Of a stretch of DNA of 64,000 nucleotides, positions 101 through 48,444 are shown in pieces; the stretch's first letter is position 1; the number at the start of each line of letters is the position of its first letter. Origin of the DNA: Acetobacterium woodii DSM 1030 (GTDB lineage Bacteria > Bacillota > Clostridia > Eubacteriales > Eubacteriaceae); the NCBI RefSeq assembly GCF_000247605.1, contig NC_016894.1, positions 1-64,000 on the forward strand. The letters run 5' to 3'. The translations under genes and the position numbers were made by a program. The notes under the pieces were generated by a model. That model made no database searches. It had not been told where the DNA came from and worked only from the letters and a program-made list of their open reading frames with translations.

Positions 101-1456
101 ATGGACACTTCCTTTAAAAAAATATGGGATGCCGCACTTGAAATTATTAAACCGGATATCAGTCCAACCAGTTTTAACACCTGGTTTTTAAAAATAAAAC
201 CGATAAATTACGTCAATAATACTTACTATTTTTTATCTGAGAACGAATTCGAGAAAGGAATTTTAGAAAGTCGGCATATTCCTTTAATTACCAACGCTTT
301 AGCCGAAGTTACCGGAAAAACCGGTCAAGTTAAAATAGTTTTAAAAGAAGAAGATGCGATGATCGCTCAAAACGCCGATTCGCCCAATGTATCAATAACC
401 AATGTCGAAGAAAAAATATCAAATTATCAAAATAACTCCATGAACCCCAAATATACATTCGACAGTTTTGTTATTGGCGAAAACAATCGTTTTGCCCATG
501 CTGCCTGTGTCGCGGTTTCTGAAGCTCCGTCCGAACGCTATAATCCACTTTTTATTTATGGTGGCGTCGGTTTAGGAAAAACGCATTTAATGCAAGCCAT
601 CGGACATTATATTTTATCCTATGCCCCGCATAAAAAGGTCGTTTATGTTTCCTGTGAAAAATTCACCAATGATTTTATTGATGCGATCCAGAACAAAACA
701 AATATTTCTTTTCGCAACAAATACCGCAGTGCCGATATTCTTTTAATTGATGATATTCAATTTTTAGCTAAAAAAGAAGGAACTCAGGAAGAATTTTTTC
801 ACACCTTTAATACCCTTCATCAGGAAAATAAACAGATTGTCATTAGTAGTGACCGTCCCCCTAAAGAAATCCCAACTTTAGAAGAAAGACTGCGTTCTCG
901 TTTTGAAAGTGGCTTAATTACTGATATTTATGCCCCTAATTTCGAAACCAGAATTGCAATTATCCGAAAAAAAGCCGAATCGTTTAGTGACGAAATTCCC
1001 AACGAAGTCTTGAGTTTTATCGCTGATAGCATTCATTCAAATATTAGAGAACTTGAAGGCGCACTAACAACCGTGTTTGCTTATTCAAAACTTCATAATG
1101 CGCCAATTAATCTGGACTCAGCTAAAAATGCCCTTAAAGATATCTTCCGAAAAAAAGATGATATTGTTATCACCAGTGAATATATCAAGGAAGTCACCGC
1201 TAAATATTTTAATATTACCGTTGAAGACATGAATTCAAAAAAAAGAACCCGCTCCATTTCACTCCCCCGACAAGTGGCCATGTATATCACGCGTGAGATT
1301 ACTGATTTATCACTTCCTAAAATTGGTGATGAATTTGGCGGTCGCGATCATTCTACCGTGATTCATGCTTGTCAGAAAATAACTGAAGAAATGACCATTA
1401 ATACCGATTTTAAAAATTTAATCCTCAGAATTGAACGTGAAATTAACGGCAAATAA
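101..1456 (+). CDS. dnaA: chromosomal replication initiator protein DnaA
   Basis: DnaA is the AAA+ ATPase that binds DnaA boxes and opens the origin. The 451-residue product has the N-terminal DnaB-interacting domain (about 1-85), a variable linker, an AAA+ core with Walker A GGVGLGKT (154-161) and Walker B LLIDD (214-218), and a C-terminal box-binding domain containing GRDHSTVIHA. ATG 101 is chosen over the upstream in-frame TTG at 86 because GGAGG (88-92) lies 8 nt before it and overlaps the TTG reading. Flanking DnaA boxes on both sides support autoregulation. Length and motifs are normal. Confidence 0.98.
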   Translation: MDTSFKKIWDAALEIIKPDISPTSFNTWFLKIKPINYVNNTYYFLSENEFEKGILESRHIPLITNALAEVTGKTGQVKIVLKEEDAMIAQNADSPNVSITNVEEKISNYQNNSMNPKYTFDSFVIGENNRFAHAACVAVSEAPSERYNPLFIYGGVGLGKTHLMQAIGHYILSYAPHKKVVYVSCEKFTNDFIDAIQNKTNISFRNKYRSADILLIDDIQFLAKKEGTQEEFFHTFNTLHQENKQIVISSDRPPKEIPTLEERLRSRFESGLITDIYAPNFETRIAIIRKKAESFSDEIPNEVLSFIADSIHSNIRELEGALTTVFAYSKLHNAPINLDSAKNALKDIFRKKDDIVITSEYIKEVTAKYFNITVEDMNSKKRTRSISLPRQVAMYITREITDLSLPKIGDEFGGRDHSTVIHACQKITEEMTINTDFKNLILRIEREINGK

Positions 1457-1630
1457 CTGTGCACATCTTTAGCTGTTATTTAAATAAGTTATCCACAATT
1501 AATACCCTTAAAAATTAGGCCTTTTTTGTTCTATCAACGCCTTTGAAGAGTTATTAACATTATCCACATCCCCTACTACTAATACTATTATTTAATATAT
1601 ATATTTATATATAAAAAGGAGCTATTATTT
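1457..1630. promoter_or_regulatory. oriC: oriC unwinding region (DnaA boxes, DnaA-trios, AT-rich DUE)
   Basis: The dnaA-dnaN gap holds two perfect TTATCCACA boxes at 1489-1497 and 1560-1568. The second is followed by a short C-rich spacer (1570-1573), then a run of TAC/TAA/TAT triplets (about 1574-1594), then almost pure A/T to 1616. That order (box, GC spacer, DnaA-trios, AT-rich stretch) matches the basal unwinding system described for Bacillus subtilis. Together with the boxes at 33-59 this makes a bipartite origin around dnaA. The dnaN ribosome binding site AAGGAG is at 1616-1621. Confidence 0.85.
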
Positions 1631-2743
1631 ATGAAATTTAATTGTTCAAAAGAAAGTTTAATGGCTGCATTAACGATTGCTCAAAAAGCAGTTTCATCAA
1701 AAACAACCTTAACCATTCTGGAAGGAATTCTTTTTAGTGCTGCTGATAATAAATTATTATTAAGAAGTACCGACTTAGAAATTGGTGTTGAAGTCACGAT
1801 TCCAGCAGAAGTTGAAAAAGAAGGCGAGATCGTTTTAACGGCTTCGATTATTGGTGAACTGATTCGTAAAATGTCCGGTTCTGATATTTTCTTTGAAAGT
1901 AATGAAAATCATCAAATTAAAATAGAATGTTTATTATCTAATTTTACGTTAAAAGGATTATCTTCTGAAGAATTTCCTGCTTTTCCAGAAATAATCGATG
2001 ATCATATTTTTTCCATTGATGCCGGCGTTTTAAAAGAATTGATTAAAGGAACTTTATTTTCGGTCGCGACAAATGAAAATATCCCCGTTTTGACTGGGGT
2101 AAAAATAGAACTTCATGCGGATGATATTAATTTAATTGCCTTGGATGGTTATCGTTTAGCACTAAAATCGGGTAAAATCAAAAATAATTTAACAGAAGAT
2201 CTAAGTGTGATCATCCCCTCAAAATCATTGTCGGAAATTAACAAGGTCTTATCAAATTACAGCGGTGATGTGACGGTTAAGTTTTCAAAAAATCAAATCT
2301 TTTTTGAAATGGATAATACCCAGTTTACATCACGTCTTTTGGAAGGCGATTTTATCAATTACAAGCAAATCATTCCGGTGGAAAAAGCAACACAAGTAAA
2401 GATTAATCGGCGTTTGCTTTTGGAAAGTAGTGAACGGGCAGCATTGTTGGCCCGCGAAGGCAAAAATAATTTAATTAAGATGGATTTTAATCAGGATCAA
2501 CTGATTTTAACCTCAAATGCTGATATCGGCGATGTTTTTGAAGTTATTCCGATTGAAAATAGTGGTGAATCACTAAAAATAGCGTTTAACTCTAAATTTT
2601 TAATTGAAGCCTTACGGGTAATTGAAGGCGATGAACTCATGATTGATATGACAACTTCAGTTGGTCCAGGGGTTCTTTTACCAATCGAAGGTAATAATTT
2701 TATTTATTTAATTCTTCCCGTTCGAATCGCCGAAGAGAATTAA
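1631..2743 (+). CDS. dnaN: DNA polymerase III beta subunit (sliding clamp)
   Basis: This is the ring-shaped processivity clamp that tethers the replicative polymerase to DNA. The 370-residue length is typical of Firmicute clamps. The three-domain architecture is recognisable from conserved stretches such as SSKTTLTILEGILF near the N-terminus and the C-terminal LPVRIAE ending, which lines the partner-binding groove. ATG 1631 is preceded by AAGGAG with 9 nt spacing. It follows dnaA across the origin, as in most Firmicutes, and ends before a hairpin terminator. Confidence 0.97.
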   Translation: MKFNCSKESLMAALTIAQKAVSSKTTLTILEGILFSAADNKLLLRSTDLEIGVEVTIPAEVEKEGEIVLTASIIGELIRKMSGSDIFFESNENHQIKIECLLSNFTLKGLSSEEFPAFPEIIDDHIFSIDAGVLKELIKGTLFSVATNENIPVLTGVKIELHADDINLIALDGYRLALKSGKIKNNLTEDLSVIIPSKSLSEINKVLSNYSGDVTVKFSKNQIFFEMDNTQFTSRLLEGDFINYKQIIPVEKATQVKINRRLLLESSERAALLAREGKNNLIKMDFNQDQLILTSNADIGDVFEVIPIENSGESLKIAFNSKFLIEALRVIEGDELMIDMTTSVGPGVLLPIEGNNFIYLILPVRIAEEN

Positions 2744-2788
2744 ATTAAGAATCAAAAGAAGTTTAAAAAAAGAAGTTTAAGGATAGTT

Positions 2789-2826
2789 AAAAAAATCAGA
2801 ATTATCGAAATGATTTTCTGATTTTT
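2789..2826 (+). terminator. intrinsic terminator after dnaN
   Basis: AAAAATCAGAA (2791-2801) pairs with TTCTGATTTTT (2816-2826) around a 14-nt loop. The uninterrupted T tail makes this a plausible rho-independent end for the dnaN transcript. Confidence 0.65.
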
Positions 2827-2855
2827 GAGACTATTTTTTAATTTTATGTTATAAT
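2825..2855 (+). promoter_or_regulatory. probable promoter for the S4/recF/gyrase run
   Basis: A perfect -10 TATAAT lies at 2850-2855, with a weaker -35 TTGAGA at 2825-2830. The 19-bp spacer is longer than ideal. It sits between the dnaN terminator and the S4-domain gene, which opens a tightly packed set of genes. Confidence 0.5.
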
Positions 2856-2965
2856 AGCTTGGTCAGCAGATAAACATATAAAAAATTTAATCATTTTGGT
2901 GCAAATAAAGGGGATTCGTGTAATGCTCTTTCATTTTTGCCAAAAATATAATGCGTGGGGAAAAT

Positions 2966-3186
2966 ATGCAAATAATTGAGATTAACACTGAGTTTATAAA
3001 AATCGATCAACTGCTTAAATATGCCGGTATTGTTGGCAATGGCAGTGATGTAAAATTTATGATTCTCGATGGATTAATTCGGGTAAATGGAGAGTTATGC
3101 ACCCAAAGAAATAAAAAAATAAGAGATGGCGATCTTGTTGAAATAGAAGATTATGAACCCTTGCAAGTAAAAGGGATCACAACGAC

Positions 3187-3205
<19 letters not shown>
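2966..3205 (+). CDS. S4-domain RNA-binding protein (YaaA/RlbA type)
   Basis: This is a 79-residue protein that is almost entirely an S4 RNA-binding fold (IKIDQLLKYAGIVGNG, then VNGELCTQRNKKIRDGD). Genes of this type sit between dnaN and recF in many Firmicutes; B. subtilis YaaA/RlbA has been linked to ribosome assembly. ATG 2966 is preferred over ATG 2951 because GGGGA (2957-2961) lies just upstream of it, whereas 2951 has no ribosome binding site. The last 19 nt overlap recF, so the two are probably translationally coupled. Confidence 0.85.
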
Positions 3206-6232
<3,027 letters not shown>

Positions 6233-10450: not shown

Positions 10451-10479
10451 TTGACTTAAAGTTATTGATAATGTATACT
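10451..10479 (+). promoter_or_regulatory. sigma-A promoter for the riboswitch/nitrogenase-like operon
   Basis: -35 TTGACT (10451-10456), a 17-bp spacer and -10 TATACT (10474-10479) form a near-consensus promoter. It would start transcription about 15 nt before the cobalamin riboswitch. Confidence 0.75.
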
Positions 10480-10496
10480 AGGCATACAATAAAATT

Positions 10497-10662
10497 AACA
10501 ATAGAGGTGGCTAGCATAATGGTGTTGGCATAATAGGGAAACAGGTTAAATTCCTGTACGGTACCGCCGCTGTGTAAGAGGAATTTTTCCATGAATACCA
10601 CTGTTTTTCGGGAAGGTAGGAAAAGTGAGGACGCTTGAGTCAGAAAACCTGCCTTTATTGAT
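10497..10662 (+). promoter_or_regulatory. cobalamin (B12) riboswitch
   Basis: The conserved B12-box elements occur in order: GGTGttggc..., GGGAAacaGGTtaAAtTCC (from 10535), the CCGCCGCTGTG core (from 10564), accACTG...GGGAAGG (10597-10617), and the 3-prime box AGTCAGAAAACCTGCC (about 10638-10653). The class is known to bind adenosyl- or other cobalamins and to switch genes off. The perfect terminator at 10752-10788 downstream suggests transcriptional control of the nitrogenase-like/BtuFCD operon. Confidence 0.93.
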
Positions 10663-10751
10663 GTCTTTTTATTCTGCGTGATTACGGAATAGATCGAAAA
10701 ACAAAGAAAAATAGAGCGTTTTTTTGTTTTTTAACTCAGCAATAAATACGG

Positions 10752-10788
10752 AGCTGCAATTGTCTTAATGACAATTGCAGCTTTTTTT
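10752..10788 (+). terminator. riboswitch expression-platform terminator
   Basis: A perfect 13-bp stem AGCTGCAATTGTC / GACAATTGCAGCT (10752-10764 / 10770-10782) is followed by a T run. It lies between the cobalamin riboswitch and the first gene at 10862, so it is the likely off-state structure. Confidence 0.85.
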
Positions 10789-10861
10789 ATTGAAAAACAG
10801 ATGATTCAAGGACTTGTTCAACTAAGTTTAGTAATGATCTGATAAAAAAAATGGAGGTAGG

Positions 10862-11617
10862 ATGTTGGAAAGAATAGCGATATATGGGAAAGGGGGAATT
10901 GGTAAGTCGACCACGGTGACAAATATTTCGGCGGCTTTAGCCCAAAAAGGACTGACTGTGATGCAGATTGGATGTGATCCCAAATCAGATTCGACCATTA
11001 ATCTAATGGGCGGAAAAAGAATTCCAACTGTGTTAGAGGTCATCCGCGAAAAGGGTAATGAAACAAAGTTGGACGATCTGGTCTCGATAGGAAGCTTTGG
11101 GGTTTTATGCGTTGAAGCCGGTGGACCCAAGCCAGGTATTGGTTGTGCCGGGAGAGGTATCATTGCAGCTTTTGAAAAATTGGAAGCGCTTAAAGCTGAG
11201 GCCTTTTATCAACCAGATATCATTTTATATGATGTTCTCGGCGATGTCGTTTGTGGAGGTTTTGCCATGCCCATTCGGAATGGCTATGCCGATAAGGTAT
11301 GCATCGTTACATCAGGTGAACGGATGTCGCTTTATGCGGCTGACAATATTGTCAGTGCCGTTCGTTCGTATGGATCTCGAGGGTATGCCAGTCTTGGCGG
11401 CTTGATTCTCAATAAAAAAGGAATTGTTAATGAAGAAGGTATTGTTCAGAATGTAGCAGATGAAATTGATACCCAAGTTATCTTTACGATCGAGCGCGAC
11501 AAGCTGGTTCAAGATGCTGAAGCGGTCAATCAGACGGTGATAGAAAAATTTCCCAATAGTACTCAAGCACGGGCTTATCGGCAATTGGCCGATAAACTAT
11601 TTTCAGGAGAAAAATAA
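10862..11617 (+). CDS. nitrogenase-like reductase, iron protein (NifH/BchL superfamily)
   Basis: This 251-residue protein belongs to the NifH/BchL/CfbC ATPase family, which feeds electrons to a partner metalloprotein using ATP. Seen directly: P-loop GKGGIGKST (9-17), the switch region QIGCDPKSDST, and the two cysteines that bridge the subunits' [4Fe-4S] cluster, C95 (GIGCAGRG) and C131 (VVCGGFAMP). It begins a riboswitch-controlled operon with D-like and K-like partners and a BtuFCD-type importer. Absence of nifE/N/B nearby argues against nitrogen fixation. The link to a tetrapyrrole or cobalt substrate is inference. Confidence 0.92.
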   Translation: MLERIAIYGKGGIGKSTTVTNISAALAQKGLTVMQIGCDPKSDSTINLMGGKRIPTVLEVIREKGNETKLDDLVSIGSFGVLCVEAGGPKPGIGCAGRGIIAAFEKLEALKAEAFYQPDIILYDVLGDVVCGGFAMPIRNGYADKVCIVTSGERMSLYAADNIVSAVRSYGSRGYASLGGLILNKKGIVNEEGIVQNVADEIDTQVIFTIERDKLVQDAEAVNQTVIEKFPNSTQARAYRQLADKLFSGEK

Positions 11618-11619
11618 AA

Positions 11620-12912
11620 ATGCGTTTAAACAGATTATCAGAAATTAAAAAAAATCAAGATATTTATGGCGATTCCGCGGCGATTTCCTGCGGCGTATTT
11701 TGTCCGACTTTTGGAGTGGCGGTCTCGGCACCATTAATTAAGGAGGCGGCAGTGATGGTGGTTGGCACCGCGGAATGCACTTGGTATGCCAAAAACAGTT
11801 GCCTTTATCATAGTGAAGATCCCGGATATGACCGCTTTTATTCATGTGTTTTTGAAGATTCCGACATTACTTTTGGGGATCGTGGTGGAATTAAGCAGTC
11901 ACTTCTCAAAATTGCTGAATCTGAAGCAATACAATGTATTTTTCTAGTTAGTACCTGCATTCCAGAAATTATTGGTGAAGATCTGGAGGCGATTTCAAAA
12001 GAAGCACAAAAAATCTGCGGCAAACCAATTTTGCCGGTTCATATTGCTCATTATGATAATAATTGCAATGAATTTGGAGTCGCTATTGCCAGAACCCTTA
12101 GGGTTCAAGGCCGATTAATGAAACCACAAACTGTGAAACCGGGAACTGTTAATTTTTTAGGACGAAATTTTCATGCCGGCACAGCTGGCACACCAAAACA
12201 GTCGGAATTAGCAAAATGTTTGGAACAGGCGGGGGTTACTATTAATCTAATGCTGCCGGATCAATGCTGCATTAAGCAAATTTATGAGGCCCCGGGGGCC
12301 GCCCTCAATATTGTCACCAACGAGGTTGGCCGGGAATTAGCAGAGTATATGCAAAATCAGTTTGGAACACCTTTTGTAGAATTTGAGGCCTCCTTGGATA
12401 TCAATTATATCAGCGCAGGGTATCAACAACTCGAAGAATATCTGGAACTTGACTTAAGTGCGGATTATATGGCGTTACAGCAACAGGCGGAGAGCTTGGT
12501 GGCAGAAGCCCGGCAGGATTTAGCCGGTAAAACATTTATCAATGGCGGCAGACCGCCTGATGCCCTTGAGGTGGCAGCTTTTTTAAGCGCATTGGGAATG
12601 AAACCGATGTTAATCAATGCCTATCGCTTAAATGATAAAAGTGAAGCAAACCGACAATTTATTCTGGAACAGGGGTGCGATCCCTATGTTAACTATGTTG
12701 CCAATCCGAATGCGGCGATGAGTATGCTGACAAAACTGCAGCCGGATTTATATATCGGGTTTGGGAATGGAGACTATCTTCGTCAATTAGGAATCAGCCA
12801 TCTGGAGACGCTGCTGCCGCCGGGAAAAATTGGTTATGAAGCAATTATTCATGTTATTACAGCAATTCAAGCGGCTTTAAAAGGAGGCGATCAAGATGTA
12901 TCTTGTGCGTGA
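11620..12912 (+). CDS. nitrogenase-like component 1, NifD-type subunit
   Basis: This 430-residue protein of the oxidoreductase/nitrogenase component 1 family is the probable catalytic partner of the upstream iron protein. The three cysteines that ligate the P-cluster or [4Fe-4S] cluster in relatives are visible as C24 or C28 (ISCGVFCP), C53 (GTAECTWY) and C113 (STCIPEIIGED). A central LPDQCCIKQIYEAPGAALNIV stretch follows. It starts 2 nt after the H gene, and its end overlaps the K-like gene by 17 nt. It is shorter than NifD and most like the poorly characterised group of nitrogenase homologues; the substrate is unknown. Confidence 0.85.
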   Translation: MRLNRLSEIKKNQDIYGDSAAISCGVFCPTFGVAVSAPLIKEAAVMVVGTAECTWYAKNSCLYHSEDPGYDRFYSCVFEDSDITFGDRGGIKQSLLKIAESEAIQCIFLVSTCIPEIIGEDLEAISKEAQKICGKPILPVHIAHYDNNCNEFGVAIARTLRVQGRLMKPQTVKPGTVNFLGRNFHAGTAGTPKQSELAKCLEQAGVTINLMLPDQCCIKQIYEAPGAALNIVTNEVGRELAEYMQNQFGTPFVEFEASLDINYISAGYQQLEEYLELDLSADYMALQQQAESLVAEARQDLAGKTFINGGRPPDALEVAAFLSALGMKPMLINAYRLNDKSEANRQFILEQGCDPYVNYVANPNAAMSMLTKLQPDLYIGFGNGDYLRQLGISHLETLLPPGKIGYEAIIHVITAIQAALKGGDQDVSCA

Positions 12913-14089
12913 TTATCCAACCCCATCCGATCGCATGGGGTTGTTATGGGCACTTAGCGGGATTCAGGATTTGATAATTGTGGAGTTTGGTCCCGAAGGG
13001 ACAACCCGTTATATGTTAGAAGCTCTTAAGCAGTTTGGGCATGAAGCCCGGGCTACCTTATATACCACCACGATGGATGAAGATGTGGTGATCTTTGGAA
13101 ACGCGGATCGTTTAATTAAGGTTCTTCAGGAAGTTGATCAAAGACATAAGCCGGAGGCGATTATCGTGATGGATTCTTCGGTAGCGTCTGTAATCGGCAT
13201 GGATATGGACGGAATTTGTAAAGAAGCCCAAAATAAAATCGCCGCTAAGCTGTTAGTGGTTAAAGGTGGGGGATTAGGTAAAAGCTGGTCTCAGGGAATT
13301 GTGGCGGGCTTGTCACTATTGGCTGATTTGACCGAGAGCGATGTTGTGGTTGAGAATGGCTATAACCTGATCGGTTGCTGTGCGGATGAGTATAATCACT
13401 TGAGTGAGGCAACGATTATTGAAGAGTTAATGAAAAAGTTATTTGGAATGGAATTATTCTGTAATTTGCCTGGCTCGACAACGATGGGAGAATGTAAGCA
13501 ACTCGGAAAAGCCAGGTTGAATATTGTGATCAGAAGCGAAGGATGTCAACTGGCTGAATGGTTATTCCAGAAGCATCAAACGCCCTATGTTTATTTACGG
13601 CCTTATGGACTGGCCGGTACAAAAAAGTGGGCAGCAGAAATAACAAGGATAACCGGTCTTCCGGCAAACTATGCTGCCTTTGCCGATGAACTTGCGCAGC
13701 TTGAGGAGCAGATAAACAAAATTTGCCGCACAACAATAATCCCTGAGTCAGAGCAGAAAACCGTTGTTTTAAGCGGTCTGGAAGATCCCATGATAGGTCT
13801 GAGTCGTTTTATTATGGATGAACTGAAACTTCCGACCGTTTGTTTTAAAAATAGCTGGTGTAATAAAAGTGACCGTTTGAAATTAACCATAGCACCGCTC
13901 AATTTAAACCCCACCGATGGTGCTAATTATTTTGTAATGGCCGATGGCTTGAGCGTTCGGACCATTGATAACGATGACTGCCTTCAAATTACGCACCCCA
14001 TTATTGATCAGTTGGCCATTCGGCAACCAGGATTAATGGGTTTTTCAGGAGCATTATTTCTGATTAATAAATTGAATCAAACTAAATAA
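12896..14089 (+). CDS. nitrogenase-like component 1, NifK-type subunit lacking cluster cysteines
   Basis: This 397-residue NifK/BchB-like protein would pair with the D-like subunit. The sites that carry P-cluster cysteines in NifK are changed: the GSQGC-like loop reads FGPEGTTRY (31-39) and the STC-x-x-x-IGDD loop reads MDSSVASVIGMD (92-103). The dimer therefore probably holds a D-side cluster completed by a non-cysteine ligand, as BchB/ChlB use an aspartate; E30 or E34 are possible here. The start overlaps the D gene by 17 nt (ribosome binding site AGGAGG inside it), implying tight coupling. Confidence 0.8.
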   Translation: MYLVRDYPTPSDRMGLLWALSGIQDLIIVEFGPEGTTRYMLEALKQFGHEARATLYTTTMDEDVVIFGNADRLIKVLQEVDQRHKPEAIIVMDSSVASVIGMDMDGICKEAQNKIAAKLLVVKGGGLGKSWSQGIVAGLSLLADLTESDVVVENGYNLIGCCADEYNHLSEATIIEELMKKLFGMELFCNLPGSTTMGECKQLGKARLNIVIRSEGCQLAEWLFQKHQTPYVYLRPYGLAGTKKWAAEITRITGLPANYAAFADELAQLEEQINKICRTTIIPESEQKTVVLSGLEDPMIGLSRFIMDELKLPTVCFKNSWCNKSDRLKLTIAPLNLNPTDGANYFVMADGLSVRTIDNDDCLQITHPIIDQLAIRQPGLMGFSGALFLINKLNQTK

Positions 14090-14122
14090 TTACCTAAATA
14101 AAAAAATGAGGAGTTAAAAAGA

Positions 14123-15226
14123 ATGAAAAACAAACGAAAGACTGGCGCCATGATAACGGTGTGCCTATTTTTAATGATGATCTTGGCTGGCTGTTCCGGC
14201 AATTCTGATAAAACCGCTGATACTGACAAAAGTAAGCAAGGTGCAGCGCGTACGATTACCGATCTGGTCGGGAATACCGTGACGCTACCGGCAGCGGCTG
14301 AGCTTAAAAATGTCGTGATTATTGCCCCACCACTATTGTCGACATATATCAGCAATATTAAAAATACCGATAATATTGTTGGTACCAGTGTGGTGGCGTT
14401 AAACGAAATGAATCCGATCTTGCTTGATATCTTTGTGCCAAATAATAAAGAGATCAATACGACGTTTTTAACTGGATATGAATCAAATACGGAAGAATTA
14501 TTAAAATTAGATCCGGATATTATTCTCGTTTATGGAGAAACGCAAAAAAAAGGGTTGCAAAATATTCCGGTGCCGGTTGTTGATTTTTTCATTAAAAATC
14601 AGATAAATGAAGACTGGTCAGTTAAAATTGATCAGTTAATGCGGGAAATATTTGAACTTGATAATAATGATTCATTACAACAGGAATGGGAAACGGCTAA
14701 CCAGAAGGTCGATCAGATCTTAACCGATATAGACAATCAAAAACAAAAGGGTTTAATGATTATGAGTAATACTGGCGATAAAATAACTGTCAGAGGAGCT
14801 GGCTCATATGGTGATGATTGGTTACTAAAAAGTGGATTGACCAATGTGGCCGCAGAATTAAACGGTGACGGACTTGAAGTAACCATGGAACAAATTCTGA
14901 GCTGGAATCCGGATATTATTTATATTTTCCGGGGGTTACCAGCGACTCAGTATCTGTCTGGTTCGATCGCCGGTCAGGATTGGTCCCAAACGCAGGCTTT
15001 TAAAGATGGACGGATTTTTAATACTCCGATTGGTATTATGAATTGGGGTACGCCTTGCGCTGATTCACCATTGATGATCCAATGGCTGGTGAGTAAAAAC
15101 TTTCCCGAAAAAATGAGTTCAGAAGATTTTTCGAAAACCTTAAAAGCCTTTTATGAAAGACGTTATCAGATTAAACTCACTGACGATATGGTTCAATCGA
15201 TTCTTAATCCGAATAATGGAAATTAA
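14123..15226 (+). CDS. ABC transporter substrate-binding lipoprotein, BtuF/FepB type
   Basis: This 367-residue class III binding protein (Peripla_BP_2 fold) is of the type used for cobalamin, haem and siderophores. It has a lipoprotein signal peptide ending LAGC (about residue 24). The domain starts ITDLVGNTVTLP, followed by the family motif LLKLDPDIILVYG and, near the end, ILSWNPDIIYIF. It is the first of three importer genes in the cobalamin-riboswitch operon, which favours a corrinoid, cobalt complex or tetrapyrrole as ligand. Specificity cannot be read from sequence. Confidence 0.87.
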   Translation: MKNKRKTGAMITVCLFLMMILAGCSGNSDKTADTDKSKQGAARTITDLVGNTVTLPAAAELKNVVIIAPPLLSTYISNIKNTDNIVGTSVVALNEMNPILLDIFVPNNKEINTTFLTGYESNTEELLKLDPDIILVYGETQKKGLQNIPVPVVDFFIKNQINEDWSVKIDQLMREIFELDNNDSLQQEWETANQKVDQILTDIDNQKQKGLMIMSNTGDKITVRGAGSYGDDWLLKSGLTNVAAELNGDGLEVTMEQILSWNPDIIYIFRGLPATQYLSGSIAGQDWSQTQAFKDGRIFNTPIGIMNWGTPCADSPLMIQWLVSKNFPEKMSSEDFSKTLKAFYERRYQIKLTDDMVQSILNPNNGN

Positions 15227-15235
15227 GATACTTTT

Positions 15236-16243
15236 ATGAAACAGCTCAGTAAGAACAGTTCTTTTATTATACTTCTAGCAATCTTTCTGGTTGTATTTGC
15301 ATTTGGATCGCTTTTTTTAGGACGGTATTATGTTGAACCGGGGCAAGTTATTCATTTGCTCTGGTCCGGTCTGACCGGAGCCCCTCTGGACAGTGTCGAT
15401 AAAACCGTGGTTTTGGATATTCGGCTACCCAGATTATTAATTGTTATCCTGGTGGGGGCCGGATTATCAATCAGCGGAACCGCTTTTCAAGGGTGTTTTC
15501 ATAATCCTTTAGTTAGCCCGGATGTTCTGGGTGTCAGCGCTGGGGCTGGATTTGGAGCCGCATTGGGAATTTTGTTAACCAATGGGGTTAACGGGATTAC
15601 GGCTGCGATGGCCTTTTTCTTTGGGATTTTAAGCGTCGTTTTAAGTTTGCTGCTTTCTCGGATAAAAAGCGAATCTTCTATTCTGGCCCTGGTTTTATCG
15701 GGGATCATTGTTTCGGCAGTGTTTAATGCTTTAATCTCGTTGGTTAAATTTGTTGCGGATACGGATTCTCAGTTGCCGGCGATTACATTTTGGCTAATGG
15801 GAAGCTTTTCCAATACGACCTATAATGAGCTGGGAAAAATCGTGATTCCGATATTAGCCGGGATTACGGTATTGATTGCCATGCGATGGCGGATTAACGT
15901 GTTGACACTGGGGGATGAAGAAGCCACGACGATGGGTGTCAATCCCCGAAAAATGCGGTTTATTATTATTGCGGCAGCGACCATTATTACTGCAGCATCG
16001 GTGATGGTTGCGGGCATTATCGGATGGGTGGGCCTGATTATTCCTAATTTATGTCGAATGATTGTTGGTTCCGATCATAAATACCTGATGCCAGCATCAT
16101 GTTTATGCGGAGCTGTATTTTTGTTGATTGTAGACTTTATTGCCCGGGTATTAACGCCGTCTGAAATTCCTATCGGTATACTTACAGCAATTATTGGGGC
16201 ACCTTTTTTTGCACTGGTATATAAAAAAACGGAGGGGTGTTGA
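15236..16243 (+). CDS. ABC transporter permease, FecCD/BtuC family
   Basis: This 335-residue, roughly 10-helix permease of the iron-siderophore/cobalamin class has the family sequences LDIRLPRLLIVILVGAGLS, FQGCFHNPLVSPDVLGVSAGAGFGA and, near the end, GWVGLIIPNLCRMIVGSDH. It lies 9 nt after the binding-protein gene, and its TGA is separated by a single nucleotide from the ATPase start. It forms the membrane channel of the BtuFCD-type importer. Confidence 0.92.
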   Translation: MKQLSKNSSFIILLAIFLVVFAFGSLFLGRYYVEPGQVIHLLWSGLTGAPLDSVDKTVVLDIRLPRLLIVILVGAGLSISGTAFQGCFHNPLVSPDVLGVSAGAGFGAALGILLTNGVNGITAAMAFFFGILSVVLSLLLSRIKSESSILALVLSGIIVSAVFNALISLVKFVADTDSQLPAITFWLMGSFSNTTYNELGKIVIPILAGITVLIAMRWRINVLTLGDEEATTMGVNPRKMRFIIIAAATIITAASVMVAGIIGWVGLIIPNLCRMIVGSDHKYLMPASCLCGAVFLLIVDFIARVLTPSEIPIGILTAIIGAPFFALVYKKTEGC

Positions 16244-16244
16244 G

Positions 16245-17015
16245 ATGCGACTGGCAGTAATTAACGGCAGTTATGGTTATCGACGAGAGAAACAAGTGCT
16301 TCAGAAAATTTCTTTTGAACTCGAACAAGGACGGATTATGACCGTTCTTGGACAAAATGGGATTGGTAAAACAACGCTATTAAAATGTATGATGGGTTTA
16401 TTGAAATGGCAGGAAGGGCAAACTCAAGTTGACGGACAAGTCTTTGAATCGATGTTGGAATGTGATGGAATTGGATATGTACCGCAGGCGCATAAAACGA
16501 TTTTTACTTATTCGGTTTTTGAAATGGTCACCATGGGACGAAGTCGTCATGTATCGATTTTTGGAATGCCATCCAAATTAGATCGGGAAAAAGTAATGGC
16601 GGCACTTGAAATTGTTGGGATCTCCCATCTCAAGGATCAGTTATGTTCACAGCTTAGCGGCGGACAATTACAACTGGTTTATATTGCCCGGGCCTTAGCA
16701 AATGAACCCCAAATTTTGATTATGGATGAACCGGAATCTCATTTGGACTTCAAAAATCAGTTCCTGATTTTGAAATTGATTCAGCGCTTGAAGGAAGAAA
16801 ATGGAATTTCCTGTATTATCAATACCCACTATCCCGAACATGCGTTGAGAATTTCAGATCAAACGTTATTGCTGGGCAGAGGGCAGTATGTTTTTGGACC
16901 GAGTCAAGAAATGATCAGTGAGGCAAATATTAAAAAATATTTTGAAGTAAATGCAAAAATCTATACCATTCCCGGTCTAAAGACACATAAAAAAGCTTTT
17001 ACGGTGGTAGATTAA
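16245..17015 (+). CDS. ABC transporter ATP-binding protein, FecE/BtuD type
   Basis: This 256-residue ATPase would power the BtuFCD-type importer. It has Walker A GQNGIGKTT, signature LSGGQLQLVYIARAL, Walker B ILIMDEPESHLD and the switch histidine in NTHYPEHAL. ATG 16245 is chosen because GGAGGGG (16231-16237) precedes it and it starts immediately after the permease stop; an upstream in-frame reading (from 16194) would run inside the permease. The methyltransferase gene follows 25 nt later. Confidence 0.92.
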   Translation: MRLAVINGSYGYRREKQVLQKISFELEQGRIMTVLGQNGIGKTTLLKCMMGLLKWQEGQTQVDGQVFESMLECDGIGYVPQAHKTIFTYSVFEMVTMGRSRHVSIFGMPSKLDREKVMAALEIVGISHLKDQLCSQLSGGQLQLVYIARALANEPQILIMDEPESHLDFKNQFLILKLIQRLKEENGISCIINTHYPEHALRISDQTLLLGRGQYVFGPSQEMISEANIKKYFEVNAKIYTIPGLKTHKKAFTVVD

Positions 17016-17040
17016 AAAGTTAATCATTTAAGGAGAAAAA

Positions 17041-17679
17041 ATGGAAGAAATTAAAAACCAAGTCAGAGCGGTCTGGAATCACCACGCCCCAAATTATGAT
17101 CAAAAACATAACCAGTTTGAAGATCGAAAAATATGGAAACAAATTCTTATTGACCAGATCGGCGATGACAAACAACAAAAAGTGTTGGATATCGGCACTG
17201 GAACAGGTTTTTTAGCAGCGTTGGCGGCTGAAGCGGGATATCATAGTACGGGGGTTGACTTGGCTGAGCGAATGATTGAGCAGGCTAAGCAGAGGGCAAT
17301 CGAACAGGAATTAAAAATAACCTATTTGATTGAAGACTGGAATCAGCTATCCTGTGATGATGCCAGTTTTGATGTGATTGTGAACCGCTGTATCATGTGG
17401 ACGATCTTTACACCGGAAAAAACTCTGGCGGAATGGCGGCGCGTGTTAAAACCTGGTGGTAGGATCTTATGTTTTTGTCCCCAAAATACAAATAACGAAC
17501 AACCGAATCATTATTGTGAAAATATTGAAACAAAATTACCGTTGCGTAATGCCGGCATCGATCAATTAAGTCGGGTACTCAAAGAAAATAATTTTAATCA
17601 AATTGAAATGATCAAATTAAATAATTTAAAATCAGCCAATCTATTTGAAAGTTGGTCATTAATTAAAGGGGTAAAATAA
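17041..17679 (+). CDS. class I SAM-dependent methyltransferase (UbiE/type 11), copy 1
   Basis: This 212-residue Rossmann methyltransferase has SAM motif I VLDIGTGTGFLA (48-59), the acidic motif II residue in STGVDLAERM and motif VLKPGGRILCF. It shares an N-terminal helix (VRAVWNHHAPNYD) and the motif-IV signature NRCIMW (115-120) with three other methyltransferases at 18493, 26319 and 34565, all beside transporters. It is the last gene of the nitrogenase-like/BtuFCD operon. Substrate unknown; a small metal-binding or corrin-related molecule is the contextual guess. Confidence 0.85.
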   Translation: MEEIKNQVRAVWNHHAPNYDQKHNQFEDRKIWKQILIDQIGDDKQQKVLDIGTGTGFLAALAAEAGYHSTGVDLAERMIEQAKQRAIEQELKITYLIEDWNQLSCDDASFDVIVNRCIMWTIFTPEKTLAEWRRVLKPGGRILCFCPQNTNNEQPNHYCENIETKLPLRNAGIDQLSRVLKENNFNQIEMIKLNNLKSANLFESWSLIKGVK

Positions 17680-17690
17680 TCGGCAGCTCA

Positions 17691-17719
17691 TTGAATTATT
17701 TATTGTGATACAGTATAAT
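17691..17719 (+). promoter_or_regulatory. sigma-A promoter for marR
   Basis: TTGAAT (17691-17696), 17-bp spacer, TATAAT (17714-17719). The expected start site falls at or next to the ATG at 17726, so this message may be leaderless. Confidence 0.7.
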
Positions 17720-17725
17720 TTATTT

Positions 17726-18175
17726 ATGAAAGAAGATGTAAATAGCGTAATTGATGAATATATTAAAATGGTCGAGCGAATTGCAAATGGTAAAACCAAC
17801 ATATTGGATTTTGGAGATGATATGGTTTTTTATCGTGGTGAAATTCATATGATCAAAATGATTGGTGATTTTCCGGGAATATTTATGTCAGAAATGGCCA
17901 GAAATTTTAATATCACCCGGGCAGTTGTTTCGAAAACGATAAAAAAACTGGAGGCTAAAGACATTGTTTTTAAACAAATCGACGCAAGTGATAAAAAACG
18001 GATATGCTTATATTTAACCGCAAAAGGAAAAGAAGCTTATCTGGCTCATCAAAACTATCATAACCATTATGACAGTCCGCTTTTTAATTACCTAGATGAA
18101 CTGGAACATGAAAAACTGGTTGTTATTGAGGAGTTTTTAAAGAAAGCAAACCAGTTAATTGAAAACCATTTTTAG
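17726..18175 (+). CDS. MarR-family transcriptional regulator
   Basis: This 149-residue winged-helix regulator has the recognition region MSEMARNFNITRAVVSKTIKKLEAKDIV and the wing with DASDKKRICLYLTAKG, typical of MarR proteins that sense small molecules. ATG 17726 is preferred over an in-frame GTG at 17705, because 17705 lies upstream of the -10 box. No ribosome binding site precedes either, in keeping with a leaderless transcript. It sits between two methyltransferase/transporter units and may regulate one of them; palindromes at 18356-18392 are candidate operators. Confidence 0.85.
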   Translation: MKEDVNSVIDEYIKMVERIANGKTNILDFGDDMVFYRGEIHMIKMIGDFPGIFMSEMARNFNITRAVVSKTIKKLEAKDIVFKQIDASDKKRICLYLTAKGKEAYLAHQNYHNHYDSPLFNYLDELEHEKLVVIEEFLKKANQLIENHF

Positions 18176-25554: not shown

Positions 25555-26331
25555 ATGGAGCGAACTTTATTAAAAAAATTGAAGTGGCTGCCTGAAAGCA
25601 TTGAAGAGCAAAATATAATTTATGATTCCCCCAAAAAAGGACGAGATGAATTAGAGTACGTGATCCTAAAATCCGTCAATCTGATTAGACAAAATGAGAT
25701 GGTTCATTTTTATAAGTTAGAACCTGATAGACATATTCCAAAGCATGGACATGATTTTATTGAAGTATTTTATACCTGCAAAGGAATCGTACAGCATATT
25801 ATTCAGGGGAACATCGTGAATGTAAAAAAAGGCGAACTTTTATTTATGAGTCAAAATACTGTACATGAAATTAATCCTGTTTCAGAAGAAGATGTCGGGG
25901 TATATTTCGCGTTTGTTCCAGAGTTCTTTCATCAAATTAACGCCATGATGGAAATAGACAATACGGTAGCAGAATTTATATTCAACAGTTTGCTGGGTAG
26001 CGATAAAAAAACATCGTATTTCCATTTTCAAACAGCGACAAATAAACGGATTCATAATTTAATAGAAAATATGATTGAAATCATTTTAAGCGGCAAGCAA
26101 AGCAGCATGAAGTTGCTCCAAAACACGATGCTGCTTATTTTTTTGGAAATGATTGAGAGTTTTGAGGAATCATATAAAAATGAAATGAAGCAAATCAATG
26201 GTGGAAATGTTATGGAAGTCATAAATTATATTAACCAAAATTATAAAAATGCATCTTTGTCGGAATTGAGCAAAGAAATGCATATTTCCGTAGCATATCT
26301 CAGTCAGATGATCAAAAAAACACAGGGGTAA
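25555..26331 (+). CDS. AraC-family regulator, frame broken inside the HTH domain
   Basis: A cupin sensor domain (PKHGHDFIEVFYTCKG; VKKGELLFMSQNTVHEI) is followed by the first helix-turn-helix (ASLSELSKEMHISVAYLSQMIKK). The zero frame then ends at TAA 26329-26331. The rest of the AraC DNA-binding domain continues in the -1 frame from the A7 run at 26314-26320, and leads straight into a methyltransferase. So this is either a two-domain AraC-methyltransferase made by frameshifting at A7, a sequencing error in the A run, or a recent mutation. Alone, the 258-residue product would lack the second HTH. Confidence 0.75.
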   Translation: MERTLLKKLKWLPESIEEQNIIYDSPKKGRDELEYVILKSVNLIRQNEMVHFYKLEPDRHIPKHGHDFIEVFYTCKGIVQHIIQGNIVNVKKGELLFMSQNTVHEINPVSEEDVGVYFAFVPEFFHQINAMMEIDNTVAEFIFNSLLGSDKKTSYFHFQTATNKRIHNLIENMIEIILSGKQSSMKLLQNTMLLIFLEMIESFEESYKNEMKQINGGNVMEVINYINQNYKNASLSELSKEMHISVAYLSQMIKKTQG

Positions 26332-27278
26332 CCTTTAAAAAATTGCTGCAGGATCGAAGATTTCAAGTTGCTGCTGAACTCATCAGTTTTTCCGATCTGA
26401 CCATACATAGTATTGCAGAAAAAGTAGGTTATGAAAATATCAGTTATTTTTATAAAAAATTTGCAGAGCGTTATAAAATGACACCCAATGAGTATCGGCA
26501 ATATCATCAAAATAGCGACATGAAAGATGAGGAAAAACGGACGTTAATGCAGAATAAGCTGGATCACTATTGGTCAGAACGATCAGATAGTTATAGTAAA
26601 CAGAATCAGAAGCAGTTGGAGAATGAATATCGCGAAAAGTGGAAAAAACTGATTCTTGCACATGTTCCTGAAAAAAGGGATTTAAAAGTGTTGGATATTG
26701 GAACCGGACCGGGGTTTTTGGCAATTTTATTAACCGAGTGTGGCTATGATGTTGTAGCCGTTGATCGGAATAATCAAATGTTGTTGAAGGCGAAAGAGAA
26801 TGCCAGAAAGTATGGCGTAACGGTTGAATTTAAAAAAGTCGGTGATGAGTTGCCGTTTTGCGATAATAGCTTTGATCTGGTTATTTCACGAGATGTTACC
26901 TGGATGTTGTTGCAGCCAGAAAAAATAATGCAGAACTGGTATCAAAAAGTTAAACCGGAAGGAAGACTCCTTTATTTTGATGCAAACTGGTATGGATATC
27001 TAAATGATACAGAAGAGCGAAAAACATATAAACAATTTCGAAAATTTGTAAAAGAAAGAAATGGTTTTATTTATCCTAAAGCACGGGAACTTGAGGCAAT
27101 GGCTTTAAAATTACCGTTAACTTCTGAAGAGCGGCCGCGTTGGGATATTGCTTATTGGCGAAAAAACCGGGTAAAAAAAGTATCCGCCATAACAAAATTA
27201 AATGCGGATATTTATTCAGAGATAGAGCAATTGCAATATTTAAAAACACCTGAATTTTTAGTGGTTGTGGAAAAATGA
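26319..27278 (+). CDS. second half of AraC HTH fused to SAM-dependent methyltransferase, copy 3
   Basis: Read in the -1 frame from the A7 run, this begins NTGVTFKKLLQDRR and completes the AraC domain (LTIHSIAEKVGYENISYFYKKFAERYKMTPNEYRQY). It then runs into a methyltransferase (LDHYWSERSDSYS; motif I VLDIGTGPGFLA; SRDVTW; LLYFDANWY). No normal start exists for the fused part. ATG 26547, with GAGGA at 26529-26533, could start the methyltransferase alone; the only nominal start at the frame junction is TTG 26343. The stop overlaps the next permease by 4 nt (ATGA). Homologous to copies 1, 2 and 4. Confidence 0.75.
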   Translation, partial: NTGVTFKKLLQDRRFQVAAELISFSDLTIHSIAEKVGYENISYFYKKFAERYKMTPNEYRQYHQNSDMKDEEKRTLMQNKLDHYWSERSDSYSKQNQKQLENEYREKWKKLILAHVPEKRDLKVLDIGTGPGFLAILLTECGYDVVAVDRNNQMLLKAKENARKYGVTVEFKKVGDELPFCDNSFDLVISRDVTWMLLQPEKIMQNWYQKVKPEGRLLYFDANWYGYLNDTEERKTYKQFRKFVKERNGFIYPKARELEAMALKLPLTSEERPRWDIAYWRKNRVKKVSAITKLNADIYSEIEQLQYLKTPEFLVVVEK

Positions 27279-37140: not shown

Positions 37141-37283
37141 TGAAGAAATATTTTTTAGAGTTTTAAAAAAGTCATCGAAGCTGGGAAATTAGTGGAAGAT
37201 ACAGGGGAAAATAGATTAAACATGATTAAACCGTCTTGACAGAAATAACAAATTCTAGAAGCATAATTTTAATTAAATAAATT

Positions 37284-37455
37284 GTTATGAGTGCTGTTGA
37301 ATCGAAATTCAACAGAGAATAGGAAAATGGGTTGAATTCCCATGCTGTCACGCAGCTGTAAGCGAGAAGTTTGATTTCATAATGTCACTGGTGTTTTTGA
37401 CACTGGGAAGGCGAAATTAAGATGATGATCCGTAAGCCAGAAGACCTGCTTATAA
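37284..37455 (+). promoter_or_regulatory. cobalamin (B12) riboswitch
   Basis: B12 elements in order: AGGAAaatGGGTtgAATtCCC (37321-37341), the CACGCAGCTGTAA core (37349-37361), tCACTG...CTGGGAAGG (37385-37411) and GCCAGAAGACCTGCT (37436-37450). A TTGACA at 37236-37241 is the likely -35; the -10 is less clear. A terminator follows at 37537. The next gene is the CsoR-family regulator, with a MITE inserted between. Confidence 0.92.
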
Positions 37456-37536
37456 TACGATTCGTTGTTGACCTACGAGAAAGATAGGTAGATGGATAGA
37501 AGTTTTTTAAGATAGTTTTTATCTTGTGGCGCTTGT

Positions 37537-37573
37537 AACTCCTAGTCTATTTCGTGATGGGGAGTTTTTTTAT
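37537..37573 (+). terminator. riboswitch expression-platform terminator
   Basis: AACTCC (37537-37542) pairs with GGAGTT (37561-37566) around a partly paired loop, followed by a T run. It probably gives cobalamin-dependent premature termination. Confidence 0.7.
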
Positions 37574-37585
37574 TTTTAAATTCTT

Positions 37586-37756
37586 TAGGTAATTGCAAAA
37601 GTGCCATGAGCTTTGGGCCCAGTTTCTCACGAAACAATTTCTACACGGTACGGCGGACAGTTCGATGAACGGTTCGCCGACACGTTACGAAATCGTTTGT
37701 GGAAACTGCACCCAAAGCAACCGTTGTTTGATGTTTTTTAATTTCGCAATTACCTA
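37586..37756 (+). mobile_element. 171-bp fold-back MITE, copy 4
   Basis: A full-length copy with perfect 11-bp flanking repeats TTTAAATTCTT (37575-37585 and 37757-37767). It sits between the riboswitch terminator and the csoR-like gene, so any riboswitch-controlled transcript must pass through this hairpin-forming element. Confidence 0.9.
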
Positions 37757-37782
37757 TTTAAATTCTTTAAAAGGAGGTAAAA

Positions 37783-38124
37783 ATGACCCAGATTAAAAAT
37801 TATACCGATATAAATGAGAACGATTCAACGACTCAAATGGTTAAAATTGACGAAAAAGATCATCACCATACCCATTCAAAAGCGGTCCTAAATCGCTTGT
37901 CAAAAGCGATTGGTCATTTAGAATCGGTTCGGAAAATGGTTGAGTCTGGCCGGGATTGTTCGGAAGTTCTGATCCAATTATCGGCTGTCAAAGCGGCGAT
38001 TAATAATACCGGGAAAATAATTCTTCAAGATCATCTTGAGCATTGTATTGTCAGTGTGGTAAAAGACGGCGACCATCAAGCCATTGAGGAAATAAACAAA
38101 GCCATTAATCGATTTATAAAATAG
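37783..38124 (+). CDS. CsoR/FrmR/RcnR-family metal-sensing repressor
   Basis: This 113-residue all-helical DUF156 protein shows the CsoR-type metal site C59 (GRDCSEVL), H84 and C88 (DHLEHC), the X-His-Cys pattern of Cu(I) sensors. An added His-rich N-terminus DHHHTH (26-31) recalls Ni/Co-sensing RcnR and InrS. AAAGGAGG lies just before ATG 37783. Its place behind a cobalamin riboswitch and ahead of a metal-type importer points to cobalt or nickel; the C-H-C set alone would suggest copper. The actual metal is unresolved. Confidence 0.87.
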   Translation: MTQIKNYTDINENDSTTQMVKIDEKDHHHTHSKAVLNRLSKAIGHLESVRKMVESGRDCSEVLIQLSAVKAAINNTGKIILQDHLEHCIVSVVKDGDHQAIEEINKAINRFIK

Positions 38125-38160
38125 TTATCAAGCAAGACGAAAATGAGGAGGAATAGAGTG

Positions 38161-45414: not shown

Positions 45415-45483
45415 AGTGTTTTGATTATTTGTTCTTAAAATATCGATTAAGCTGAGAAGATTATTAAATTGAATATGAATGAA

Positions 45484-45652
45484 ACAGGTGCCGACGGTAA
45501 TCCAAAGGATTACAGGTCGGTGAAAAGGGAAGATGGGTGAAAATCCCACGCGGTCCCGCCGCTGTAAGAGAAGAGTTCCTCCAGGAATGCCACCAGAATA
45601 TGGGAAGGCAGGGGGTAATGTTGACGCTTTAGCCAGAAGACCTGCCTGCTTT
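45484..45652 (+). promoter_or_regulatory. cobalamin (B12) riboswitch upstream of nikABCDE
   Basis: The clearest of the three B12 elements. ACAGGTGCCGACGG opens it; GGGAAgaTGGGTGAAAATCCCACGCGGTCCCGCCGCTGTAA follows in order (45528-45567, read as separate conserved blocks). Then come GCCACCAG...GGGAAGG (45589-45608) and AGCCAGAAGACCTGCC (45631-45646). Two terminators follow, one of which reuses the 3-prime end of the riboswitch. It controls nikABCDE by position. Confidence 0.95.
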
Positions 45653-45744
45653 AATTACTCAGTCTCTACGCGTGATAGAGGAGGTGTTTTTTTGCAGGCT
45701 TTTTTTGCGACCTCACTATCTTTTTTGAGATAGTGAGGTTTTTT
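45643..45744 (+). terminator. tandem terminators of the nik riboswitch platform
   Basis: GCCTGC (45643-45648, overlapping the last riboswitch box) can pair with GCAGGC (45694-45699), followed by TTTTTTT, while CTCTA-cgcgtga-TAGAG forms within. A second hairpin CCTCACTATC (45711-45720) / GATAGTGAGG (45729-45738) with six T follows. The first could alternate with the ligand-bound fold. Beyond 45744 a TATGAT at 45813 may be an extra -10. Confidence 0.75.
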
Positions 45745-45881
45745 AATGGAAAAAATACCTCGAAAATACAGATGTAAATTTTTAATTTTGTGATAAAGCT
45801 GAGGTTCTTTGCTATGATGCGCAATGGCATAAAAACTGGAAGTTGATCAAATAAAATAAGTATTTAAGAGGAGAAAAGAAA

Positions 45882-47477: not shown

Positions 47478-47513
47478 TCAGGGGATGATACACAAGAAAA
47501 AGGGAGTAAGACC

Positions 47514-48443: not shown

Positions 48444-48444
48444 G

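Follow-up and report, generated by a model that had tools for sequence, protein, structure and literature searches.

A nitrogenase-like reductase encoded with a metal-chelate importer in Acetobacterium woodii: a possible route for freeing metals from imported complexes

What does a nitrogenase-like reductase do when it is encoded in one operon with an importer of the metal-chelate kind, behind a cobalamin riboswitch? The question is raised by a locus (10451–18175) near the beginning of the window, by which we mean the first 64,000 nucleotides of contig NC_016894.1 of Acetobacterium woodii DSM 1030; all positions below are those of this 64-kb stretch, forward strand. Gene domains were assigned with Pfam and subfamilies tested against NCBIfam model cut-offs. 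Six consecutive genes, all on the forward strand, form the heart of the locus: H (10862–11617; Fer4_NifH PF00142, 303.8 bits), a NifH-family reductase or Fe protein; D (11620–12912; PF00148, 166.5 bits) and K (12896–14089; PF00148, 165.5 bits), two Oxidored_nitro subunits, the former with Cys28, Cys53 and Cys113 and the latter without cysteine at two aligned P-cluster sites; F (14123–15226; Peripla_BP_2), a substrate-binding lipoprotein; C (15236–16243; FecCD), a FecCD/BtuC-type permease; and A (about 16245–17015; ABC_tran), an ABC ATPase with an ATG start at about 16245. The reading we favour, with somewhat less than even confidence, is that the importer takes up a metal complex and the ATP-driven reductase frees the metal, which would be iron in many members of the family and cobalt or a corrinoid here.

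The nitrogenase relatives whose function is known have N2, tetrapyrroles or sulfur compounds as substrates or take part in cofactor assembly. With a Fer4_NifH protein and two Oxidored_nitro subunits above the Pfam cut-offs, H-D-K belongs to the nitrogenase-like superfamily, and none of the three proteins reaches the cut-off of any listed Nif, Bch or Cfb NCBIfam model. The top model for H is CfbC (333.7 bits against a cut-off of 402); NifH gives 322.5 bits (394.35), BchX 194.3 (331.2) and BchL 188.6 (345.15). D and K score 23.5 and 40.9 bits with CfbD (268.4), D 47.4 with BchN (419.95) and K 81.9 with BchB (490.35), and among the Nif, Vnf and Anf models, none of whose cut-offs was reached, the best for both was NifE (81.7 and 91.6; cut-off 505.1). 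In a tree of 56 rows of D and K with Nif and Bch references, the D relatives make up a single clade (support 97/96), as do the K relatives (100/99), both separate from Nif; D does not group with the Bch rows, and K stands beside BchZ with weak support (85/75), the BchN, BchB, BchY and BchZ branches being long and maybe misplaced. H-D-K thus appears to form a clade of its own against Nif and Bch references, in a tree that held no Mar or CfbD sequences. The preliminary description of this DNA, which knew of no characterised enzyme with such a gene set and proposed a phylogeny as a check, is upheld to the extent that D and K lie outside the Nif and Bch clades tested, with the caution that the length of the Bch branches imposes. 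On model scores, absent ligands and tree position together we reject a true nitrogenase. Eight Oxidored_nitro matches were found in the host genome (4.04 Mb), namely the window pair, two at 796–799 kb and four at 907–912 kb, and the latter two groups look like the host's nitrogenases.

Which metal cluster the D-K complex might hold can be approached through its ligands, counted over near-full-length rows only (71 of D and 78 of K, the window's own among them). Cys28, Cys53 and Cys113 of D are kept in 71/71 rows, the three-cysteine pattern of DPOR, and are presumably the counterparts of BchN C26, C51 and C112; Cys53 and Cys113 align with NifD cysteines that we take to serve the P-cluster. K has no cysteine at either of two aligned P-cluster sites in any of its 78 rows (position 36: Thr in 66, His in 11, Asn in 1; position 95: Ser in 64, Ala in 9, Thr in 4, Gly in 1), the N-terminal site having fallen outside the alignment, and Thr36 presumably sits roughly at the Asp ligand position of BchB. 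The stretch of D aligned with the QCHRS segment of NifD, whose cysteine we take to be the cofactor ligand, has no cysteine in the profile; the His ligand lies outside the alignment. Given the cysteine triad of D, the lack of a K cysteine at the two aligned sites and the lack of a cofactor cysteine, D and K are predicted to have one [4Fe-4S] cluster between them, of the DPOR/Cfb kind, in place of P- and L-type clusters. The link to tetrapyrrole reducers drawn in the preliminary description accordingly holds for the cofactor, as predicted from the D triad and the cysteine-free K sites. Eleven of the 78 K proteins (L044, L046–L048, L123 and L128–L133, in our numbering of loci) have Cys33 and His36, and so different possible cluster ligands.

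Structure models agree with this for one of the subunits. For K, the model (pLDDT 89.9) has its best fold match in BchB of DPOR (Z 37.3, 3.3 Å over 380 residues) and reaches Z 32.2 with a Mar chain, while the fold of D (pLDDT 90.6) is uninformative, because BchB (Z 31.5), a vanadium-nitrogenase chain (30.6) and Fe-nitrogenase tie within about 1 Z. No CfbD or COR chain was among the 50 top matches listed for either fold search. DPOR (BchLNB) is accordingly the system that shares the H-D-K make-up, the three D cysteines, the absence of K cysteines at two aligned sites and the best K fold match, but the window proteins score far under the DPOR models and stand in a separate clade (the Bch branches being long), and their operon has an importer. 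With CfbCD the window shares an H nearest to the CfbC model and, probably, the restriction to [4Fe-4S], whereas its proteins lie under the CfbC and CfbD cut-offs and it has two different catalytic subunits.

The same ligands bear on a carbon-sulfur reductase of Mar or Isr type. Such an enzyme would belong to the same superfamily and, like MarHDK methylthio-alkane reductase, would have a nitrogenase-like H-D-K composition, and group IV-A MarHDK-like genes occur near corrinoid methyltransferase clusters according to the available part of PMC10418091. Mar, however, holds P- and [Fe8S9C]-clusters (PMC12552129, in the part available), the ligands of which are absent here at the aligned sites, in K (78/78) as in the aligned segment of D, and the importer belongs to a type that carries metal chelates. 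We reject the Mar type on these cluster ligands, as aligned to Nif sites and with a tree free of Mar sequences; an IsrB-type radical SAM (S-adenosylmethionine) partner was not found among the operon genes, and we consider carbon-sulfur chemistry of either type highly improbable.

How widely the gene set is shared was asked of the relatives. A close D (65%) occurs in one of the 18 other genomes of the genus, and D matches at 1e-30 in 6 of 67 genomes of the order and 9 of 391 in a sample of the class, the own genome counted in both. A scan of species genomes gave 151 relatives, the best 80 of which were taken; by their recorded taxonomy these comprise 60 from Clostridia, 5 from Negativicutes, a few from Tissierellia and others, including one spirochaete, one archaeal and one Bacteroidales metagenome-assembled genome, and two of the 80 are recorded as Clostridioides difficile. 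The neighbourhood survey covered 88 loci with the window included, some on truncated contigs; L064, L069 and L122 had been dropped as copies of L042, L041 and L044, and L049–L051, a distant group, were left out of the gene-set survey and retained in the HugZ and Fur counts. K is present in 83 of the 88, and within 7 kb of it lie D in 79 and H in 75. A permease upstream of K on the same strand, at most 7 kb away, was found in 67 loci and an ATPase in 66; a flavodoxin occurs in 26 and a divergent upstream AraC gene in 35, likewise within 7 kb of K. The commonest gene order is H-F-C-A-D-K, frequently with a flavodoxin added. The preliminary description stood to be refuted if relatives did not keep the operon; the linkage of H-D-K to an importer is deeply conserved.

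This is not so for the methyltransferase, which had been proposed to modify the imported molecule. The class I SAM methyltransferase of the window (17041–17679; Methyltransf_11, 82.9 bits) is 58% identical to that of L039 (in our numbering of loci), the one close ortholog in the genus, and a MarR-like gene and a methyltransferase gene lie 3' of K in L089, but the survey of 88 loci and a comparison of the methyltransferases reject it as a core part of the set. L088 has a Nik-type set 3' of K. A distant second H-D-K type flanked by FecBCD genes occurs in L049, L050, L051 and L151 (same-genus genomes and Treponema saccharophilum), with no H found beside D in L051, and the ortholog genome has an extra NifH-family gene (G002:C1:787708-788493) at a distance of about 24 kb from its H-D-K operon.

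What the importer carries is suggested by the partner genes of the relatives. A HugZ-like gene lies 3' of K on the same strand in 6 loci, in five of them within 190 bases, L065 having a second K piece in between. ChaN haem-binding proteins above the Pfam cut-off are encoded 3' of K in L079 and L096, where they precede a TonB receptor similar to those for B12 and hemin, with scores under both cut-offs. The one flavodoxin scanned is nearest to BilS (86.9 bits, cut-off 155). In the Sporomusaceae, L129 and L150 encode TonB siderophore receptors (357.9 and 339.6 bits against a cut-off of 223.5), L132 encodes a relative of the L129 receptor, and L150, on a plasmid, also has annotated iron permeases, an AraC gene and a weakly Fes-like esterase (32.4 bits, cut-off 222). 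A TonB receptor gene stands within about 11 kb of K in 6/6 Negativicutes loci (L079, L096, L097, L129, L132 and L150).

Iron control points the same way. In the 250 bases that precede the first gene of each operon, a scan was made for the motif TGATAATNATTATCA, which we take to be the Fur consensus, at a threshold of at least 12 of 14 matches. Such boxes precede 18/77 operons, whereas 0.8% of 1540 shuffles have one, as do 17/462 other upstream regions (Fisher p 6e-8, a value that overstates the enrichment because the loci are related and not independent draws), and perfect boxes precede 5/77 compared with 1/462. In C. difficile, the available part of PMC11633334 lists an iron permease two tags away from a gene annotated as NifH, a spacing which, we infer, matches the order H-F-C. 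Across the wider H-D-K family, uptake of iron, heme or siderophores is a frequent context.

These contexts are where the main rival to metal release has to be weighed, namely that the enzyme is a macrocycle reductase like DPOR, COR or CfbCD, which would reduce double bonds in the ring of a porphyrin or corrin after its import (heme in gut members, a corrinoid here) and so loosen the metal. Ring reduction fits the DPOR-like cysteine pattern and K fold better than metal release does, DPOR and CfbCD have [Fe4S4] clusters and tetrapyrrole sites only (PMC12552129, in the part available), and the HugZ-like, ChaN and BilS-like flavodoxin partners suit it as well. It does not fit the TonB siderophore receptors above the cut-off in L129 and L150, which belong to one clade and one of which is accompanied by the weakly Fes-like esterase, a setting unfit for a tetrapyrrole. 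On balance we regard ring reduction as a serious but unlikely explanation. The siderophore-type partners could also mean that the organic part of a metallophore is reduced, or that a step in making one is catalysed, with the metal untouched. Methyltransferases near importers, four of them homologous in the window, would agree with this, but no siderophore biosynthesis genes were recognised among the neighbours, part of which were scanned, and we consider this reading improbable.

How, then, does a cobalamin riboswitch come to stand before the A. woodii operon? The aptamer (10488–10670) scores 100.5 bits with Rfam RF00174, compared with a gathering score of 31.5, and lies upstream of H, so that the operon counts as part of the cobalamin-riboswitch regulon; our own model R1, of which the window sequence was part, gives it 152.6 bits. 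R1 was run over 93 sources. Of the 71 loci that have both K and H, with 600 bases or more of sequence preceding H, only the window and L039 have a cobalamin riboswitch immediately before that gene (2/71). The other matches were two at further places in the window, four away from the operon (one in L086 and three in L150) and one in L079. Rfam scans of L039–L053 agree, and the riboswitch is rejected as a family trait; of the conserved unit in the preliminary description, H-D-K with its importer is kept and the riboswitch is not. The one in L079 (Phascolarctobacterium faecium) opens a stretch at 909–5204 that continues with a TonB receptor gene, an AP_endonuc_2-like TIM-barrel gene (29.4 bits, slightly under the cut-off of 31.1) and a lipoprotein resembling a substrate-binding protein, followed by H. 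The cobamide-remodelling enzyme CbiR belongs to the AP_endonuc_2 superfamily (PMC7733943, in the part available), and the L079 gene may encode a CbiR-like enzyme.

The two riboswitch-bearing operons also stand apart in their proteins. D of the window, L039 and L054 forms its own sublineage (100/100), as does K of the window and L039 (100/100). In the window, L039 and L054, three widely kept histidines, D His27 (63/71), K His59 (71/78) and K His38 (62/78), are replaced (the L054 K residues were read separately and are not among the 78 rows), the window having Phe27 in D and Thr59 and Arg38 in K; lying close to the cluster sites along the sequence, these positions would line the active site. The window and L039 have a Fur score of 9/14, the commonest score in shuffles, and no Fur box precedes the window operon. 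Histidine loss together with the swap of control suggests an altered substrate in this sublineage. Since the Fur box is missing, the riboswitch stands before H and the histidines near the cluster cysteines are changed, a cobalt complex, corrinoid or other, would be the most likely substrate here. A corrin substrate, one of those that the preliminary description had suggested, is therefore plausible for the window sublineage, and not as a rule for the family, where iron, heme and siderophore contexts are frequent and the riboswitch is confined to 2/71 loci.

A cobalt-centred alternative is that H-D-K is a low-potential activase, comparable to ATP-driven corrinoid activases, reducing Co(II) of a salvaged corrinoid to Co(I) and so allowing adenosylation or methyl transfer. 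The riboswitch, the many corrinoid proteins of the host and the methyltransferase in the operon favour this, while the 2/71 count and the enrichment of Fur boxes in the family go against it; we think it quite unlikely. The host genome has 33 B12-binding matches, 30 of them above cut-off, two acetyl-CoA synthase matches and 16 cobalamin riboswitch matches, 14 above cut-off, and looks like that of an acetogen. The first long frames after its other riboswitches include ThiC/BzaB-like, BtuC-like, BtuF-like, precorrin-6A reductase, EutP-like, HemA and NrdG2 genes; HemA and an NrdG2-type activase are found in this position in the own genome, L143 and L146.

In the reading we favour, metal release, F, C and A, a transporter of FecBCD type, would bring a metal complex into the cell, H would use ATP to feed electrons to the D-K complex, and D-K, with its one predicted [4Fe-4S] on three D cysteines as in DPOR, would reduce the bound complex and make the metal or the macrocycle usable. 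For many family members the substrate would probably be chelated iron, as heme or a ferric siderophore, and the operon would be expressed when iron is short; in the window host it would most likely be a cobalt complex, a corrinoid or other cobalt chelate, imported when B12 is short. Which genes are present and with which partners, the riboswitch, the pattern of cysteines, the clade and the enrichment of Fur boxes can be read off the DNA, and the steps of the chemistry, the cluster and the substrate are in every case deduced from them. We prefer reductive metal release because an imported metal chelate is what the heme, siderophore and cobalt contexts have in common.

Several further points weigh against metal release. 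The two HugZ-like proteins scanned reach 131 and 137.9 bits against a HugZ cut-off of 240, and heme partners are few among the 83 K loci (6 HugZ-like, 2 ChaN). No Fur box at 12/14 or better precedes 59/77 operons, the C. difficile-like L040, L056 and L058 reach a score of 11/14 only, and an earlier, narrower count gave 9/48 compared with 36/516, with a background that could share the same intergenic DNA. A term search found no 'nitrogenase' in the main text, as available, of a C. difficile Fur study (PMC6311696). The substrate-binding protein and the permease reach no substrate-specific model cut-off: the permease scores 226 and 204.6 bits with BtuC models (cut-offs 461 and 334), and no BtuF model is among the NCBIfam matches of F. 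The host has further riboswitch-led BtuC- and BtuF-like genes as well, so that B12 import itself needs no H-D-K; the same genes weaken a plain role in B12 uptake.

Upstream of H, the preliminary description's layout of promoter, riboswitch and terminator is all present: a sigma-70-like site (TTGACT-17-TATACT, 10451–10479, forward strand), called by consensus match only and weak taken alone, since such sites are at least as frequent in shuffles, and beyond the aptamer an intrinsic-terminator-like hairpin (10750–10784, forward strand) of 15 pairs plus a T run. The region has two such hairpins, the same stem counted once per strand, against a shuffle mean of 0.3. The seven tightly packed genes described earlier are borne out by the coordinates, with a 2-nt gap between H and D and a 17-nt overlap of D and K, and Pfam confirms their listing as H-D-K, a FecBCD/BtuFCD-type importer and a methyltransferase; what that list omitted is a MarR-family regulator gene (about 17735–18175, forward strand). 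Because the MarR protein of L039 is 79% identical and its gene also adjoins the methyltransferase, the H-D-K transcription unit probably runs on into this gene, for eight in total.

Downstream, four homologous methyltransferases (at 17.0, 18.5, 26.3 and 34.4 kb) lie among FecBCD- and Nik/Opp-type importers. Substrate-binding proteins at 21158, 29248 and 42132 resemble NikA or Opp proteins under the cut-offs, while a fourth, at 45882, exceeds the NikA cut-off (602.5 bits against 393). Cobalamin riboswitches at 37272 and 45469 precede the last two importer sets, the second leading a NikABCDE-type set (45469–50928). B12-riboswitch-led NikABCDE systems of C. tetani and D. hafniense have been separated from nickel-specific ones (PMC2667541, in the part available); the window has such a set, which differs from the H-D-K operon in belonging to another transporter family and in having no reductase described with it in that text. 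The operon thus looks like part of a cobalt-acquisition island (17041–50928). In the stretch 37272–38143 the riboswitch is followed by a 675-base gap and an AstE/AspA-type deacylase gene, and at 25555–27278 an AraC-like gene is apparently split by a stop in its helix-turn-helix, a second frame with part of that motif continuing into a methyltransferase.

The operon was found undescribed in the literature reached by full-text search (chiefly non-subscription journals, among the matches listed), and the available parts of PMC12552129, PMC9147875, PMC11423573, PMC10418091, PMC6311696, PMC11633334, PMC2667541 and PMC7733943 do not describe it. Anaerobic heme-use operons (HutW/HmuW with flavodoxin; HmuS) share the flavodoxin, and HugZ-like or ChaN partners with some relatives, but rely on radical SAM enzymes or a de-chelatase, in the parts of the sources available. 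We tentatively propose, as a possibility somewhat short of our confidence in metal release itself, a new functional class of nitrogenase-like enzymes, ATP-driven reductases that would strip the metal from heme, siderophores or corrinoids once these are in the cell. In many anaerobes, gut species among them, they would be under iron control; in this acetogen a B12 riboswitch would have taken over, along with changes of residue beside the cluster, to serve cobalt or corrin salvage. If true, metal-chelate import would add a further role to those of the nitrogenase relatives; gut anaerobes, C. difficile among them, would have an unrecognised route to iron; and an enzyme system would have given up a Fur site for a B12 riboswitch, and in this way have passed from control by iron to control by cobalt.

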